Source of the DNA: Acidobacteriota bacterium
GTDB taxonomy: Bacteria; Acidobacteriota; Terriglobia; Terriglobales; SCQP01
Length of the DNA: 64,000 bases
Reading direction: 5' to 3'
Assembly: GCA_021818955.1 (NCBI GenBank)
Contig: JAKASR010000001.1
Coordinates: forward strand, 124,001 to 188,000
The notes below the pieces were generated by a model. It was not told where the DNA came from. It searched no databases and worked only from the letters and a program-made list of their open reading frames with translations. A program made the position numbers and the translations under genes. Below, one piece after another: positions 17,108 to 36,785 of the stretch (position 1 is the first letter of the stretch; every line of letters begins with the position of its first letter).

Positions 17108-17668
17108 ATGGCCGCACCCGTGACTGTTCCCCCTGCCGCTACCGGATTGGAGATCCTGATCCCGCGCCAGCGTATAGCCGCGCGAATCGAGGAATTGGGC
17201 GCCGCCATTGCCCGCGACTTCGCCGGGCAATCGTTGCTGCTGGTGGGCATTTTGAAAGGGGCGGCGATATTTCTGGCCGATCTGGCGCGCGCCCTGCCGC
17301 TGGATGCCAGTTTCGACTTCATGGCGGTTTCCAGTTACGGGCGCAGCAGCCGCAGCTCGGGCGTGGTGCGCCTGCTCAAAGACTTGAACGAAGATATTGC
17401 CGGGCGCAACGTGTTGCTGGTGGAAGACATTCTCGATACCGGGTTGACGCTGGCCTACCTGCGCGGGCTGCTGGAAGACCGGTCGCCGCAACAGCTAAAG
17501 ATCGTGGCCCTGCTGGATAAAGTGTCGCGCCGCCAATCGCCGATCCGAGCCGATTATGTCGGGTTTGAGATTCCCGACCGTTTCGTGGTCGGCTATGGGC
17601 TGGATTACCAGGAACGCTACCGCAATCTCGCCGACATCCGCATCCTGCCCGATCCGAGCGGAAAGTAA
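17108..17668 (+). CDS. hpt: Hypoxanthine phosphoribosyltransferase
   Basis: 186 residues. The PRPP-binding motif VLLVEDILDTGLTL, the flexible-loop segment SSYGRSS, and LLVGILKGAAIFLADL identify a type I purine phosphoribosyltransferase of the HPRT group; the FVVGYGLDYQERYRNLADI block near the C-terminus is typical of bacterial Hpt. Salvages hypoxanthine and guanine to IMP and GMP. It lies 102 bp after deoC and 12 bp before rpiB, so hpt-rpiB are probably cotranscribed and deoC may join them. All three handle pentose-phosphate or nucleoside-derived metabolites. Confidence 0.93.
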   Translation: MAAPVTVPPAATGLEILIPRQRIAARIEELGAAIARDFAGQSLLLVGILKGAAIFLADLARALPLDASFDFMAVSSYGRSSRSSGVVRLLKDLNEDIAGRNVLLVEDILDTGLTLAYLRGLLEDRSPQQLKIVALLDKVSRRQSPIRADYVGFEIPDRFVVGYGLDYQERYRNLADIRILPDPSGK

Positions 17669-20610: not shown

Positions 20611-20685
20611 ACCTATTCAGGCCCTTGACCTGAACGCGGCAAAAACCGATACCTTCCGGCCCCAGCTTATTGCCATTGCCGGGCA

Positions 20686-20783
20686 CAATTCCCGCGGAAT
20701 TGCCGGCTGGCTTGATGCAATTCCTGCGGAATTGCTTGGTTTTATCGTCACCAGGCGCGGAACCGAACCGGAACCCCGCGCCT
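20686..20783. repeat. Dispersed repeat, middle module (two hairpins)
   Basis: Contains a CAATTCC-CGC-GGAATTG hairpin (20686-20702), then GCAATTCC-TGC-GGAATTGC (20717-20735) and an AGGCGCGG/CCGCGCCT stem (20753-20760 with 20776-20783). From 20717 on it aligns over about 67 nt with 26248-26314, with about 11 mismatches by hand. Located in the 255-bp gap between bioA and the flavoprotein gene, which otherwise shows nothing recognisable. Confidence 0.8.
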
Positions 20784-22790: not shown

Positions 22791-22820
22791 GCGGCACGGC
22801 CGCTTTTACTTTTAGACGCT
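22791..22820 (+). terminator. Terminator-like repeat module A, copy 1
   Basis: GCGGC-ACG-GCCGC stem-loop followed by TTTTACTTTT, 8 bp after the GNAT stop. The same module recurs at 25149, 26147, 27166, 30177, 34275 and, reversed, near 36142. Stem plus T-rich tract and position fit an intrinsic terminator. Confidence 0.65.
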
Positions 22821-22830
22821 TAAAACATTT

Positions 22831-25148: not shown

Positions 25149-25212
25149 GCGGCACGGCCGCTTTTACTTTTCGGCGCGGACGTTTGCGCAAAGATCCGGA
25201 CGAAGCCGGCCG
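25149..25212 (+). terminator. Terminator-like repeat module A, copy 2
   Basis: GCGGC-ACG-GCCGC (25149-25161) followed directly by TTTTACTTTT, 8 bp after the P5C dehydrogenase stop. The remainder (GGCGCGGACGTTTGCGCAAA, then a degraded CCGG stem) continues the module. The position mirrors copy 1 exactly. Confidence 0.65.
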
Positions 25213-25217
25213 CCCAA

Positions 25218-26146: not shown

Positions 26147-26365
26147 GCGGCTCGGCCGCTTTTACTTTCAGGCGCTGACGCTTTCGCAAACATCCGGCCG
26201 AAGCCGGACGCATGGCGAAAACTCATGGCTGCCGGGCATTGCCAGGCGCAATTCCTGCGGAATTGCTTGGTATTGTCGTTCATAGGCGCGGGACCTAATA
26301 GGAACCCCGCGCTTCGGCCTGCGATTTCTGACGAAAACTTCTGTCCGACTCGGCCGTTAACGCTT
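26147..26365 (+). repeat. Composite dispersed repeat: modules A, middle and B
   Basis: The most complete A-to-B copy in the window, about 219 bp. Order: terminator-like GCGGC-TCG-GCCGC plus TTTTACTTTC (26147-26169); TCCGGC-CGAA-GCCGGA hairpin (26193-26208); GCAATTCC-TGC-GGAATTGC (26248-26266); GCGCGGG/CCCGCGC stem (26286-26312); module B GTCCGACTCGGCCGTTAACG (from 26343). It fills most of a 353-bp gap between genes that both read leftward, so it is not a terminator for either. Nothing else recognisable lies in the gap apart from a short duplicated TTTTCAG. Confidence 0.8.
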
Positions 26366-30010: not shown

Positions 30011-30240
30011 AAAGCGTTCACGGCCGAGCCGGACAGTAGAGCATGACCGGAGTTCATGGTCCGGGTAATTTCGAAGAAATTACCGGAAGAATGCGCTCTT
30101 TCGAAGAATTATCTTCCGGAAGCCCAGGTCCGCAGGCCGGGCTGGCGCGGGGCGCCTGTGAGGGCCCGCGCCTAAGGCGGCTCGGCCGCTTTTACTTTTA
30201 GGCGCTGACGCTCTCGCAAACGTCCGGCCGAAGCCGGACG
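30011..30240. repeat. Composite dispersed repeat: reversed B, palindromes, stem, module A
   Basis: Within the 328-bp AsmA-guaB gap: reversed module B (AAAGCGTTCACGGCCGAGCC from 30011, 13 bp after the AsmA stop); a TAATTTC-GAA-GAAATTA palindrome inside CCGG arms (30061-30086); a GGCGCGGG/CCCGCGCC stem (30144-30151 with 30165-30172); and module A with GCGGC-TCG-GCCGC, TTTTACTTTT (30177-30200) and a GTCCGGC-CGAA-GCCGGAC hairpin (30222-30239). Beyond it lies a CCGCTC/GAGCGG hairpin (30275-30290) in front of guaB. Confidence 0.8.
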
Positions 30241-30326
30241 CTTTGTGAAAACTCTCGGTTTAGAAGCATTCGAACCGCTCCTGGGAGCGGCATGGAAATT
30301 TTCCGCTAAAATACTTGGTTACCCTC

Positions 30327-32802: not shown

Positions 32803-34263
32803 ATGGAAACCCAACGCTTGCTCGCCTGGGCTAAAGCAGCCGGAGCGCTGTTGTTGGCCGGCACGATTTTACCCTCGCCAGCTTGGGGAAAGAAGTTACC
32901 GAAACCCGCCGCGGCGGAGACCGTATCGCATGTGCGCATTGTGCGACTGAGCCTGGTGAGCGGGCCGGTGCAAGTACGCTACCCCGGCGGCGCATGGCGG
33001 CGCGGGTTGTTAAACGCGCCGGTAACGGAGGGAGAAACGATTCGCACCGGCGCCAACGCGCGCGCCGAAATCGAGTTGGAAGACGGCTCGACGGTGCGCC
33101 TGATCCCGAATTCCGAGGCCAGGTTCAGCCGGCTGGCGCTGCGCGACAAGGTGCGGCTCACGACCATCGCGGGCAAGAAAGGCACGCTGTTTTTCAACCT
33201 GCTGCGCAAGCACACCACCCGCGGGTTTGAACTGCGGCTGCAAAACGGCGAGGTCACCACGCCCTACGGCAAAGGCGAATTCCGGGCCGAAATCAATCAC
33301 GGCGCCGCCGACGTGCTGGTGCTGAAGGGCCATATCAATCTGGTTTCCGGCGGGCTGCCCTACAAACTGCACAAAAACGACCGGCTGTCGCTAGTGCCGG
33401 ATACGGCCGCTTCGCTGGCGAGCGACAAGGTGCGTGGCCGTTGGGACCACTGGAATCATCAGCGCAATCAGGCGCTGGTGGCGCGCAATCTGCACGGCTT
33501 CAATGCTCCTTTCGAGTTCGGGCTGGCGGAGCTGGCCAACTACGGCAGTTGGAACGGCAGTTGCTGGATGCCGATGGGGATGGGCCTGGGCTGGAATCCT
33601 TACATGAACGGCAACTGGTATTTCGATCCAGCGATGGGTTACGTCTGGGATTCGTTTTATCCCTGGGGCTGGCTGCCGTACCATTTTGGCGCCTGGATGA
33701 TGGGGGCGGGCGGCTGGTGCTGGTCTCCCTATAACAATTTTTGGGGTTTCGCGGCGATGCCGGTATGGTATTCCACGCCGGGTGGAGCAGTGCTGAATCC
33801 GCCCAAGCCGCCGCTCAAGCCGCCGCCGCCGCCACCGCCGCCGGTCTCGCCTATACATAAGCGGGTGATCACGGCCAGCGCGGGCGGAAAAGTTGGCGCC
33901 AAAACTGGAGCACGCGCGGGCGCGAGCCGCAAAACCGTGCTGGCGCGCAATTCCCATAATGCGACGCAGACGCGGCCGCACATACCCACACGCCAGGAAG
34001 TGAGCCGGATGACGCAGGCTCAACGCGCCGCCTGGAATCGCGCCCGCTCCACGGTTTGGCAGATGCAACAGGAGCAAAGCTGGCGCATGGGACAGCAAAA
34101 CCGCGGACGCTGGGACCCGTATCGCGCGGGAGGCAACCGCATCACGCCCTACCGTGGCGGGGTTGCGAGAAGCGACGGGGCCAGTCTGCCGGCGCCCAGT
34201 GCGATGCCCTCGCCCATGGCGGCGCCGGCCGCCCGAGGGGGCGGCGGACGGATACCGCATTAA
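32803..34263 (+). CDS. FecR-domain protein with Trp-rich and Pro-rich tail
   Basis: 486 residues. Signal peptide (residues 1-29, ending SPAWG), then a FecR domain (about 45-200) with NAPVTEGETIRTGANARAEIEL and LEDGSTVRLIPNSEARF. Residues 225-335 are extraordinarily rich in Trp, Gly, Tyr and Met (WNGSCWMPMGMGLGWNPYMN), a pattern that accompanies FecR domains in Acidobacterial surface proteins. A polyproline run follows near 345-357, then a basic, low-complexity C-terminus. No sigma factor or TonB receptor is adjacent, so a classical FecIR role is unlikely. GGAGG precedes the ATG. A terminator-like repeat starts 12 bp after the stop. Confidence 0.8.
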   Translation: METQRLLAWAKAAGALLLAGTILPSPAWGKKLPKPAAAETVSHVRIVRLSLVSGPVQVRYPGGAWRRGLLNAPVTEGETIRTGANARAEIELEDGSTVRLIPNSEARFSRLALRDKVRLTTIAGKKGTLFFNLLRKHTTRGFELRLQNGEVTTPYGKGEFRAEINHGAADVLVLKGHINLVSGGLPYKLHKNDRLSLVPDTAASLASDKVRGRWDHWNHQRNQALVARNLHGFNAPFEFGLAELANYGSWNGSCWMPMGMGLGWNPYMNGNWYFDPAMGYVWDSFYPWGWLPYHFGAWMMGAGGWCWSPYNNFWGFAAMPVWYSTPGGAVLNPPKPPLKPPPPPPPPVSPIHKRVITASAGGKVGAKTGARAGASRKTVLARNSHNATQTRPHIPTRQEVSRMTQAQRAAWNRARSTVWQMQQEQSWRMGQQNRGRWDPYRAGGNRITPYRGGVARSDGASLPAPSAMPSPMAAPAARGGGGRIPH

Positions 34264-34274
34264 AATTTTTGGAT

Positions 34275-34373
34275 GCGGCACGGCCGCATTGACTTTTAGG
34301 CGCTGACGCTTTCGCAAAGGTCCCGGCCGAAAGGCCGGACGCGGGGCGAATACTGCAATTCCTGCGGAATTGC
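34275..34373 (+). terminator. Terminator-like repeat module A (copy 6) plus middle hairpin
   Basis: GCGGC-ACG-GCCGC (34275-34287), here followed by ATTGACTTTT, 12 bp after the FecR-gene stop. The second hairpin is CCGGCC-GAAA-GGCCGG (34323-34338); compared with copies at 26193 and 30222 both arms have changed together while pairing is kept. GCAATTCC-TGC-GGAATTGC follows at 34355-34373. Confidence 0.6.
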
Positions 34374-34394
34374 CGGCTTGCCGGGCGCAATTTT

Positions 34395-35183
34395 CTATTC
34401 GCCGCGGATTTCGATGCGGCGGATGGCGGTGGCGTGCCCGGCCGAATCCAGTTCCAGGGCGACGCCGCAGAGCCGCAAATCCTCGCGGGCGGGCGCCAGG
34501 CGGCCGACGCGGGCGGTCAAAAAGCGTGAGAGGACGTCTTCGGGGCGGCAGCCGATCACGCCGGCATAAGGGCCGGTCATGCCCACATCGGTTTGAAAGG
34601 CGGTGCCCTTCGGCAGCAGGCGTTCATCGGCGGTGGGCACGTGCGTATGGGTGCCGAGCACGGCGCTGACGCGGCCATCGAGGTACCAGCCCAGGGCCTG
34701 TTTTTCACTGGTCGCTTCGGCGTGAAAATCCACCAAAATGGCGCGGCAGTCGGCGGGCAAGGCTTGCAGCAGTTCATCGGCCTTGCGAAAAGGACAATCA
34801 ATCGCGGGCAAAAAGACGCGGCCTTGCAGATTGATGATGGCGTAGGCTTCGCCGGCCGCGGTGCGTCCCTGATAAACTCCGGCGCCGGGCAGGCCGGGAG
34901 GAAAATTCGCGGGGCGCAGCACGCGGGCCGCGGGCTCGGGAAAATCGCGATAATAAGCGAATAATTCTTTGCGGTCCCAGACATGGTTGCCGGTGGTGAT
35001 GACCTGAATGCCGAGCTCGAAGAACTCTTCGGCCAGTTCGCCGGTCAACCCAAAGCCGCCGGCGGCGTTTTCGCCATTGGCAATGACCAGATCGTAATGC
35101 GGCAGGAGGGCGGGCAGGCTGCGGCGGAGAATCTCACGCCCCGGGCTGCCAAAAATATCGCCGATGAAAAGGATGCGCATCAT
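34395..35183 (-). CDS. ymdB: YmdB-family metallophosphoesterase (2',3'-cyclic nucleotide phosphodiesterase type)
   Basis: 262 residues, TIGR00282 family length. Metal-binding motifs in order: FIGDIFGSPGRE (D8 region), IANGENAAGG (N-G-E-N), TTGNHVWD, VDFHAEATSEK and GTHTHVPTADE, all characteristic. Bacillus YmdB is a phosphodiesterase for cyclic nucleotides that affects biofilm and sporulation decisions. In many genomes it neighbours rny and zapA-like genes; here zapA lies upstream on the same strand, separated by a large palindrome. Confidence 0.92.
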   Translation of the reverse strand: MMRILFIGDIFGSPGREILRRSLPALLPHYDLVIANGENAAGGFGLTGELAEEFFELGIQVITTGNHVWDRKELFAYYRDFPEPAARVLRPANFPPGLPGAGVYQGRTAAGEAYAIINLQGRVFLPAIDCPFRKADELLQALPADCRAILVDFHAEATSEKQALGWYLDGRVSAVLGTHTHVPTADERLLPKGTAFQTDVGMTGPYAGVIGCRPEDVLSRFLTARVGRLAPAREDLRLCGVALELDSAGHATAIRRIEIRGE

Positions 35184-35195
35184 TCAGTTTACAAG

Positions 35196-35283
35196 AAGCG
35201 TAAACGGCCGAGTTTTCGTCCCAGGCAATTTCGCGGAAATTGCTTCGAACGAAAACGGCTGTCCGACTCGGCCGTTAACGCTT
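35196..35283. repeat. 88-bp nested palindrome built of two module B copies
   Basis: Outer arms AAGCGTAAACGGCCGAG (35196-35212) and CTCGGCCGTTAACGCTT (35267-35283) pair with one mismatch in 17. Inside them TTTTCGT (35213-35219) pairs with ACGAAAA (35249-35255), and the centre is GCAATTTC-GCG-GAAATTGC (35225-35243). It occupies most of the 120-bp gap between the co-directional zapA and ymdB genes. It could attenuate transcription or be a mobile palindromic element. Confidence 0.85.
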
Positions 35284-35303
35284 TAAGAGCGAAGCAGGAA
35301 TTC

Positions 35304-35597
35304 TCAGCCGGTGCGGGAGAGGGCGCGGTCGAGGATGGCATTGCAGGCGGCGGTTTTTTCATGAATGGCGCGCTCGAGCCGCTCCTGGCGGGCCTGGGCG
35401 GCCTCCAGTTCATCAGCCAGATTCATGGCGGTCAGGATGGCGACGCGAAGCGAATCCACCACTTTGGCCTGACGGGCGACCTGGCGCATGCGGGCGTCGA
35501 GGTGGGCGGCGAGGCGGCGCACGTATTCGGTGTCATTGTCGCCGGCGATGCTATAGGACTGATCGTAAATCTCGACCCGGGTCAGTGTTTTCACCAT
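35304..35597 (-). CDS. zapA: Cell division protein ZapA
   Basis: 97 residues. N-terminal beta-strand motif TRVEIYDQSYSIAGDNDTEYVRRLAAHLD is the ZapA signature; the rest is a long coiled coil (about residues 40-95). ZapA bundles FtsZ filaments at the Z ring. It follows a short coiled-coil gene with the same orientation by 50 bp, forming a likely zapB-like/zapA pair. I looked for a 6S RNA next to it, as in proteobacteria, and saw none. Confidence 0.9.
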   Translation of the reverse strand: MVKTLTRVEIYDQSYSIAGDNDTEYVRRLAAHLDARMRQVARQAKVVDSLRVAILTAMNLADELEAAQARQERLERAIHEKTAACNAILDRALSRTG

Positions 35598-35647
35598 ATC
35601 CGTGCCGCTTTCGTGGAGTCCGCGCCGGGCCTCGAGGCCGAGGCCGT

Positions 35648-35926
35648 TCAGGCGAGGGCGTCAATCAGCCCCATAACTTTTTCAACCCGCCGATGGATTT
35701 CCTCGCGCTCTTTCCGCAAGGCGATGGTTTCCTTTTCCAGTTTTCCGAACTGCTCTTTAAGCTCGCTAAACCGGGTTTTCCAGGCATTGAGCTCATTTTC
35801 GGCGCGCTGGCGCGTTTCGCGCGCCTGGCGCAATTCCTCCGCAACACGCTCGATTTTGGTTTCGAGCTGGCGAAAATCATCCATTTCTTGCGGAGCAGGG
35901 GGAAGGGTTTGCAGATCGGTGGCCAT
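35648..35926 (-). CDS. ZapB-like coiled-coil protein
   Basis: 92 residues from the ATG at 35924-35926 (MATDLQTLPPAPQEMDDF); an upstream in-frame start would add three residues. From about residue 15 to the end it is one continuous coiled coil rich in Glu, Arg and Leu, ending EEIHRRVEKVMGLIDALA. Its position directly before zapA and its size suggest a division-associated coiled-coil protein comparable to ZapB, but the assignment rests on architecture and neighbourhood only. Confidence 0.7.
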   Translation of the reverse strand: MATDLQTLPPAPQEMDDFRQLETKIERVAEELRQARETRQRAENELNAWKTRFSELKEQFGKLEKETIALRKEREEIHRRVEKVMGLIDALA

Positions 35927-36064
35927 GATGAACATGCCTGACTGAAGAGCAGGCTAGGTGGAGTATAAAACGCGGCGCGGCGCGGCGCAATGCCGGCGCG
36001 CATTTTCTCAGGCAATTTACTGATGATGAACCAGTGACCCGGAGCTGGATTTTTGAGATCCATG

Positions 36065-36142
36065 AGATTTCGCCCCGCGGGCGGTTGCGGCCGGAGCGGC
36101 GCGAAAGCGCCCGCGCCAAAAAGTAAAAGCGGCCGAGCCCCC
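36065..36142 (-). terminator. Terminator-like repeat module A, reversed copy after mpg
   Basis: On the minus strand: GGGGGCTCGGCCGC followed by TTTTACTTTTT, beginning 23 nt after the mpg stop, then a degraded continuation that still aligns with the module (GGCGCGGGCGCTTTCGCGCC). Orientation and distance fit termination of mpg. The rest of the 238-bp gap shows nothing recognisable. Confidence 0.55.
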
Positions 36143-36164
36143 GGCGCGCCGTTTGACTTCGTGC

Positions 36165-36785
36165 TTAAAGCGGACGCGGGCCGGAGACGGCCGGCGAGGC
36201 GGGCAGGAAAAAGCGCGCCGGCAACGCGCGCGCGCGGGTAATGCCGATGCGGCGGCTAACGCGGATTTCCGGTCCGGCGCGGCGGGCGCGCGCCGGCAAG
36301 CCGCACGGCCAATCGTCGGCGGCGAGGCAGAGGCGGCCAGGGCGCGTGAGATCGCAGCCGTTGAGTGCGCGGCCAATGTGCAGGGTGCGGGTCAGGCGGC
36401 CCGGTCCGGACATGGCGCGGAGGGGGGAGGCGGCGGCGCCGGCCGCCAGCGGCTCGAGCGCGCGGAAGAGCACGCATCCGGCGTTGCCCGCGGGCTGGAT
36501 GGAAACATTCAGGCAGGTATGCAGGCCGTAGATTAAATAGACGTAGGCATGGCCGGCGGGGCCAAACAACACGCGATTCCGCGGGGTGGGCCCGCGCCAG
36601 GCATGGGCGGCCGGATCTTCACGGCCGAGATAAGCTTCCACTTCGACGATGCGCCCGGCCAGCCAGGCTCCGCGCCAGCGACGTAACAACAGTTTGCCCA
36701 GCAGATCGGGGGCGACTTCCAAGGGAGGCCGCTCGAAAAAAACACGCGGCAGCGGCGCCAGATTCGAGGGCAAGAGACGATGCAT
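36165..36785 (-). CDS. mpg: 3-methyladenine (alkylpurine) DNA glycosylase, AAG/MPG type
   Basis: 206 residues from ATG 36783-36785. Family motifs: LGKLLLRRW, catalytic Glu in VEVEAYLGREDPAAHAWRG, the T-P-R-N-R motif and HAYVYLIYGLHTCLNVS, where Tyr residues stack in the DNA. Excises alkylated purines in base-excision repair. The frame continues to a TTG at 36842, 4 bp from the galU stop, but the ATG fits the family. Co-directional with galU. The C-terminal 20 residues are variable and Arg/Pro-rich. Confidence 0.92.
   Translation of the reverse strand: MHRLLPSNLAPLPRVFFERPPLEVAPDLLGKLLLRRWRGAWLAGRIVEVEAYLGREDPAAHAWRGPTPRNRVLFGPAGHAYVYLIYGLHTCLNVSIQPAGNAGCVLFRALEPLAAGAAASPLRAMSGPGRLTRTLHIGRALNGCDLTRPGRLCLAADDWPCGLPARARRAGPEIRVSRRIGITRARALPARFFLPASPAVSGPRPL

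Follow-up and report, generated by a model that had tools for sequence, protein, structure and literature searches.

The window, a stretch of 64,000 nucleotides from a Terriglobia genome (Acidobacteriota; 3.8 Mb in 47 contigs), contains zapA and ymdB as neighbours on the minus strand, with a ZapB-like gene upstream of them. The gap between zapA and ymdB measures 120 bp, of which 88 bp are taken up by a nested palindrome that starts 20 nt past the zapA stop codon and stops 12 nt short of the ymdB start. The remaining space on the ymdB side holds the hexamer TAAACT, the end of which is 2 nt from the first ATG. The features are given below in window coordinates, with the repeat modules named as explained further on.

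34395 to 35183, minus strand: ymdB (Pfam YmdB, 8e-97)
35186 to 35191, minus strand: TAAACT, a -10-like box, starting 8 nt upstream of the first ymdB ATG and 11 nt upstream of the second
35192 to 35195, minus strand: left flank, CTTG when read outward, with G at +3, resembling a right-end junction
35196 to 35283, no strand assigned: 88-bp nested palindrome, B (reversed)-R2-B, from sequence, repeat and fold analysis
35196 to 35219, minus strand: left arm, the right-end module B reversed, 24 nt, with the outward R2-B spacer C-CTGGG of the common 'CC' type
35225 to 35243, no strand assigned: a single self-complementary R2 hairpin, GCAATTTC-GCG-GAAATTGC
35249 to 35283, plus strand: right arm, the right-end module B, 35 nt, with the R2-B spacer C-TTCGA of the rarer 'CTTC' type
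35284 to 35287, plus strand: right flank, TAAG, with G at +3, the target type of the family
35304 to 35597, minus strand: zapA (Pfam ZapA, 3e-19)
35648 to 35935, minus strand: ZapB-like coiled-coil gene, below the Pfam cut-off

A sequence-only reading had described the palindrome as two facing copies of module B around two further stems, and this architecture holds. The outer arms (35196-35213 and 35266-35283, 18 nt each) are 94% complementary, with 17 of 18 positions paired where the earlier count was 16 of 17. Inside them are a 7-bp stem of TTTTCGT (35213-35219) with ACGAAAA (35249-35255), base 35213 being common to the outer and middle stems, and a central 8-bp stem of GCAATTTC (35225-35232) with GAAATTGC (35236-35243) around the loop GCG. 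The very stable RNA hairpin proposed in that reading is borne out by folding: the predicted energy is -48.2 kcal/mol for plus-strand RNA (z -4.78) and -52 kcal/mol for RNA of the transcribed minus strand (z -3.71), and in each case none of 200 shuffles was equal. The right arm has one mismatch in 35 positions to the module B consensus, and the left arm corresponds to the last 18 nt of module B, also with one mismatch; as B modules, the arms differ in length by 11 nt.

No terminator-like site was detected between 34200 and 36000 (0 sites), and the same scan located no sigma-70-type promoter there. An intrinsic terminator was rejected as an explanation of the palindrome because the stem is followed by no T-run and would lack a U-tract in RNA. 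6S RNA is often found beside zapA elsewhere. This and other known RNAs were discarded as candidates since Rfam gave no match at the gathering score in the window; the corresponding loci of 15 relatives yielded one tRNA and nothing else. A permissive Rfam scan of 34200-36300 returned four weak matches, of which the one over the palindrome, mir-3613, is attributable to chance (18.4 bits, where the gathering score is 91).

The palindrome is assembled from parts of a dispersed repeat. Used as a query against its own genome, it gave at least 58 matches, with 40 of 313 candidates scored, and the best of these are to its right two thirds; a pattern demanding the loop letters of the window copy returned that copy as its sole match. 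The places read in the genome reveal a modular family with the order A-A2-R1 (0 to n)-M-R2 (0 to n)-B, the modules of which are as follows.

Module A, left end: GCGGCWCGGCCGCTTTTACTTTTAGGCGCTGACGC
Module A2: hairpin with GTCCGGCCGAAACCGGAC
Module R1, none to several, hairpin: GCGCAATTCCTGCGGAATTGC
Module M: hairpin with GCGCGGGACCTAATAGGAACCCCGCGC
Module R2, none to several, hairpin: GGCAATTTCNNNGAAATTG
Module B, right end: ACGAAAACTGCTGTCCGACTCGGCCGTTAACGCTT

Modules are sometimes missing or repeated, and the order is broken by nested or damaged copies and at 30066-30241 of the window. A pattern search of the whole genome, allowing up to three mismatches, counted 319 A, 285 B and 182 M modules, and 0 matches to a control pattern; the B pattern comprised 23 nt and is matched by the right arm of the palindrome. 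These counts uphold the earlier suggestion that the building blocks belong to a dispersed repeat of mobile character. The further suggestion, that the palindrome may represent the mobile element in full, is not borne out: complete copies run from A to B and span 98-465 bp (77 copies in the fetched sequence), and by sequence reading the palindrome contains no A, A2, R1 or M module.

The relatives search covered 21 genomes; five of them, its own included, contain B matches, and none turned up in the other 16. One genome of the same genus has 16 B matches (control 1), and three of these places, read individually, have the arrangements A2-R2-B, A2-R2-B and A-A2-B, which are parts of the same order. 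Two genomes of another genus have two matches and one match, the two being at three mismatches with a control of 1, and a genome of another family has one match at three mismatches. An M-B arrangement was also read at a place in relative genome G008. Across 299 sampled genomes of the class, two of them from the same family, M was recovered in its own genome and as one further match at three mismatches. From this distribution, the family looks young and amplified in this genome.

How the two facing B ends came together is indicated mainly by their letters. An exact pattern for facing B ends around a single R2 (gap 36-66; real gap 52) has one match genome-wide, this place, in line with the earlier call to look for other head-to-head B pairs; the control pattern also gave one match per strand, so that the single exact match is within chance and it is the letters of the arms that carry the case for facing B ends. 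Among 140 B-end matches in the fetched sequence there is one other facing pair, on contig C29, which is 273 bp wide, includes an arm with three mismatches and is contained twice in that sequence. The spacer between R2 and B is informative here. Of 60 junctions readable by script, 51 begin with CC, eight with CTTC (the right arm of the palindrome among them) and one is CATATG. The palindrome has CTTCGA on the right and CCTGGG on the left, the latter read by eye since it is too altered for the script; CCTGGG also occurs in one other family copy. Because the arms differ both in spacer type and by 11 nt in length, they are probably the ends of two different elements and not an inverted duplication of one.

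We therefore favour, with moderate confidence, the reading that the palindrome is a rearranged remnant of the non-autonomous modular mobile repeat A-A2-R1n-M-R2n-B, formed by the fusion of two inverted elements. The likeliest route is a deletion between the R2 hairpins of two oppositely oriented elements. The repeat has multiplied in this species, two oppositely oriented elements would have come to lie in the zapA-ymdB gap, and the whole sequence between their R2 hairpins would then have been lost by slippage or recombination. As R2 is self-complementary, inverted R2 modules double as direct repeats, so that a deletion from one to the other would leave exactly B'-R2-B. Both outer flanks of the palindrome carry the G at +3 that is typical of the family, although on the left flank a G is expected by chance about one time in four. 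No intermediate, in which two complete elements lie next to each other in inverted orientation, was present in the fetched sequence.

A palindromic duplication of a single element end, by foldback synthesis at a replication fork, would account for the nearly perfect outer arms (17/18), yet it sits poorly with arms that differ in R2-B spacer and by 11 nt, and we give it little weight. We judge still more improbable that B-R2-B is the minimal transposing unit, a REPIN-like doublet from which the longer A-to-B elements derive. Two inverted right ends around a hairpin do have the form described for REP doublets (PMC3116915), and both flanks of the palindrome resemble right-end junctions. However, the unit was found at one place by exact pattern against hundreds of A and B modules, its arms are of different spacer types and unequal by the same 11 nt, and no Y1 transposase was found in the genome.

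Another explanation is that a hairpin built by chance from repeat sequence has been selected as a regulatory element of a zapA-ymdB operon, as an attenuator or processing site. The strong fold on the transcribed strand and the position, 20 nt past one gene and 12 nt before the next, speak for it. Against it, the neighbourhood lacks a terminator-like site and an Rfam match above the gathering score, and the relatives compared lack the palindrome. Comparison of the gap in related genomes had been named beforehand as a check. Of 18 relatives with a match to ymdB, nine were found to have zapA next to it, and the palindrome is absent from all nine (the same-genus relative and eight more), with gaps of 5-212 nt that contain no recognisable family module. 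We consider selection for such a role unlikely, and the palindrome is most likely mainly genomic litter, an insertion that in our reading was tolerated rather than selected. In the same-genus relative, zapA and ymdB are separated by 212 nt of other sequence. This gap (L048 / L180) contains GCGCAATTGCTACGGAATGC, which resembles an R1 hairpin with an indel and was left uncalled by the scan; an old repeat may have occupied this site too.

As a probable remnant of two fused elements, the palindrome may nevertheless shape the expression of zapA and ymdB, and the decoupling of the two genes proposed for it earlier is plausible. In our reading the zapA mRNA would end in, or read through, a strong hairpin, and ymdB would also be started on its own. 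Such a 3' hairpin on the zapA transcript could protect or attenuate it, in the manner of intercistronic REP/BIME or ERIC sequences. The TAAACT box suggests a putative near-leaderless promoter of ymdB just outside the insertion, from which the gene would probably also be transcribed; given that position, the insertion would have replaced the upstream region of the promoter and not part of its message. A TANNNT box that starts 8-18 nt before the ymdB start occurs in 24 of 92 distinct upstream regions, this one included, where 13.2 are expected, and is thus a feature of some homologues only; the survey covered non-duplicate loci with at least 45 nt upstream and a match that reaches the protein start. 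In a position histogram that was not de-duplicated, the box is commonest at 11-12 nt before the aligned ymdB start, which matches the position of the box in this genome.

Beyond the palindrome, we consider the most interesting part to be the parent family itself, a large family of modular repeats that insert free of duplication and cluster by strand. Downstream of the B end, G occupies position +3 in 97 of 106 copies and position +2 in 58 of 106; the left flank is weakly A-rich, with A at -2 in 62 of 124. There is no general target duplication, as flank words of at least 7 nt are shared in 5 of 77 complete elements against 2.1 in shuffled pairs. Nested copies allow the insertion point to be read directly. 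In one (L139), an element interrupts ...GCGGAATTGC / TTGGTATCG..., and in the other (L141), another interrupts ...GTCGTTAA / TAGGCGCGGG...; relative to intact copies, nothing is duplicated in either. In these two readable nested cases, the family inserts without target duplication before NNGG-like sites. A possible exception is a 12-bp flank match in a stack of truncated A modules, also in L141. On the L141 minus strand, at about 17110-17500, A-A2 pieces are stacked; every piece is cut at GGCGAA, with a fresh A coming next, a pattern of repeated insertion or truncation at one point.

In the window and 20 stretches chosen for their repeats, where a simple hexamer script served to predict the genes, 1 of 92 element groups lies inside a predicted gene. 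Occupied gaps number 44 of 182 between tandem genes, 18 of 61 between convergent and 18 of 53 between divergent genes, with no clear preference. Elements lie nearer to the 3' ends of genes (median 24 bp, n = 80) than to the 5' ends (138.5 bp, n = 80), and in tandem gaps 27 run along transcription and 19 against it.

Copies that are neighbours mostly lie on the same strand, with little regard to the direction of the genes. This was assessed on the first 200 perfect matches listed (100 A and 100 B), merged to 152 sites, with A matches listed up to contig C35. Strands agree in 101 of 120 adjacent pairs of listed elements where 61.4 are expected, and the maximum reached in 5000 permutation runs was 86. 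Among the listed matches, agreement declines with distance, from 51 of 54 pairs less than 5 kb apart to 10 of 17 at 20-60 kb. On contig C12 (complete), cumulative GC skew peaks at 245.9 kb, and the elements, when split at 240 kb, comprise 10 on the plus and 5 on the minus strand before this point, against 1 and 18, respectively, beyond it (Fisher p 0.0002, for neighbours that are not independent). Depending on window size, the element strand there matches the local skew sign in 23, 25 or 28 of 34 elements, and the three elements in the first 120 kb are exceptions to it. Over 21 stretches of many contigs, element strand and replication direction are not significantly correlated (Spearman 0.29, p 0.21), and for third-position skew, intergenic skew and coding strand no significant link was seen over the stretches, in an undercounted element set. 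A tie of element strand to replication is suggested. Listed perfect matches amount to 18.9 per 100 kb on contig C6 and 2.5 on C28; among listed matches, C6, C22, C26 and C35 each have all their sites on one strand, and sites are several times denser on some contigs of this group than on C12, C28 and C29.

The Y1 transposase family PF01797 gave 0 matches in this genome (96.31% complete); it was found in 14 of the 21 genomes of the relatives search, with one match in the same-genus genome. Matches to a Y2 (IS91-type) transposase also numbered 0, in a search in which the controls too gave 0, so that this count is not evidence of absence. The repeats matched none of the known families searched, with BOX and TIR compared by description and not by sequence. 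BOX elements of Streptococcus pneumoniae, in the description available, are likewise modular intergenic repeats whose ends are distinct and whose internal modules vary in number; they are inserted into one another and enriched away from gene starts (PMC3049150). That description includes target duplication and terminal inverted repeats (PMC3049150), whereas, on this descriptive comparison, the present family shows neither general target duplication nor matching terminal inverted repeats. The BOX-type plan of ordered end modules and variable internal ones is found in the parent family; the palindrome has only B-R2-B. ERIC, BIME and Correia elements are described as transcribed palindromes that can attenuate or destabilise operon mRNA (PMC3049150), a likeness to the palindrome that is again one of description.

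REPINs and GTAG REPs with RAYT, as characterised in the accounts consulted, are also intergenic palindromes in hundreds of copies (PMC3116915, PMC6006769, PMC12306157), and as inverted doublets they fold into long hairpins. In contrast to these, the present inverted doublet was found once, and the complete elements are composites of 98-465 bp. The tag GTAG/GTGG is present on neither strand of the palindrome and lies within 6-7 nt of an R2 hairpin in 3 of 138 cases; with no tag and no Y1 transposase found, we rejected membership of the RAYT/REPIN group as lacking evidence. TIR repeats of TIRYT tyrosine transposases occur in Acidobacteria such as Koribacter (PMC3733652), and by description they are inverted repeats, including one repeated family, with a link to Y1-type transposases; the genome studied here differs in that no Y1 transposase was found. 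CGTC-tagged REPs, for which the same description gives no known dedicated transposase, have CGTC directly before an 8-9 bp stem that starts with AT and a loop of 4-5 nt (PMC3733652). The R2 hairpin in reverse is also preceded by CGTC; unlike in that description, the tag is 3-4 nt from the stem, the loop has 3 nt and the stem start lacks the AT pairs, and we do not assign it to this group. Set against IS200/IS605-like single-strand transposition, the family offers its duplication-free nested cases, the one-sided NN(G)G and strand clustering, with the switch on C12 and the p of 0.21 over 21 stretches. In the open-access literature, the module letters appeared only in an unrelated context, and no such Acidobacteria repeat was found among the titles listed.

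Taken as a whole, the following picture is tentative, and we hold it as somewhat doubtful: the family would be a new modular mobile repeat of about 300 copies, inserted precisely and without duplication 2-3 nt before G or GG, on a strand that follows the replication fork (single-strand insertion) and not the genes, moved by something other than a recognisable Y1 transposase, and with inverted neighbours that collapse at R2 into palindromes. Read as a fusion, the palindrome itself is a readable fossil, its arms suggesting two repeats fused at a self-complementary module, and such fusion is a possible route by which bacterial repeats create long palindromes. The hundreds of copies of the parent family, together with nested empty sites, make its insertion and strand rules directly testable.

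Several other copies or fragments of the family lie in the window, at 20683-20781, 22791-22825 and 25149-25213. A complete A-to-B copy occupies 26147-26365, and the order-breaking place at 30066-30241 has A-A2 beside an oppositely oriented M. Near the palindrome, an A-R1 fragment (34275-34373) lies 12 bp past a stop codon, with 22 bp separating it from the ymdB 3' end, and a lone A is found on the minus strand at 36107-36141. Module A (e.g. 30177-30211) resembles a short hairpin with TTTTACTTTT after it, and several copies begin no more than some tens of bases from a stop codon; judged by its sequence, the module may work as a terminator.
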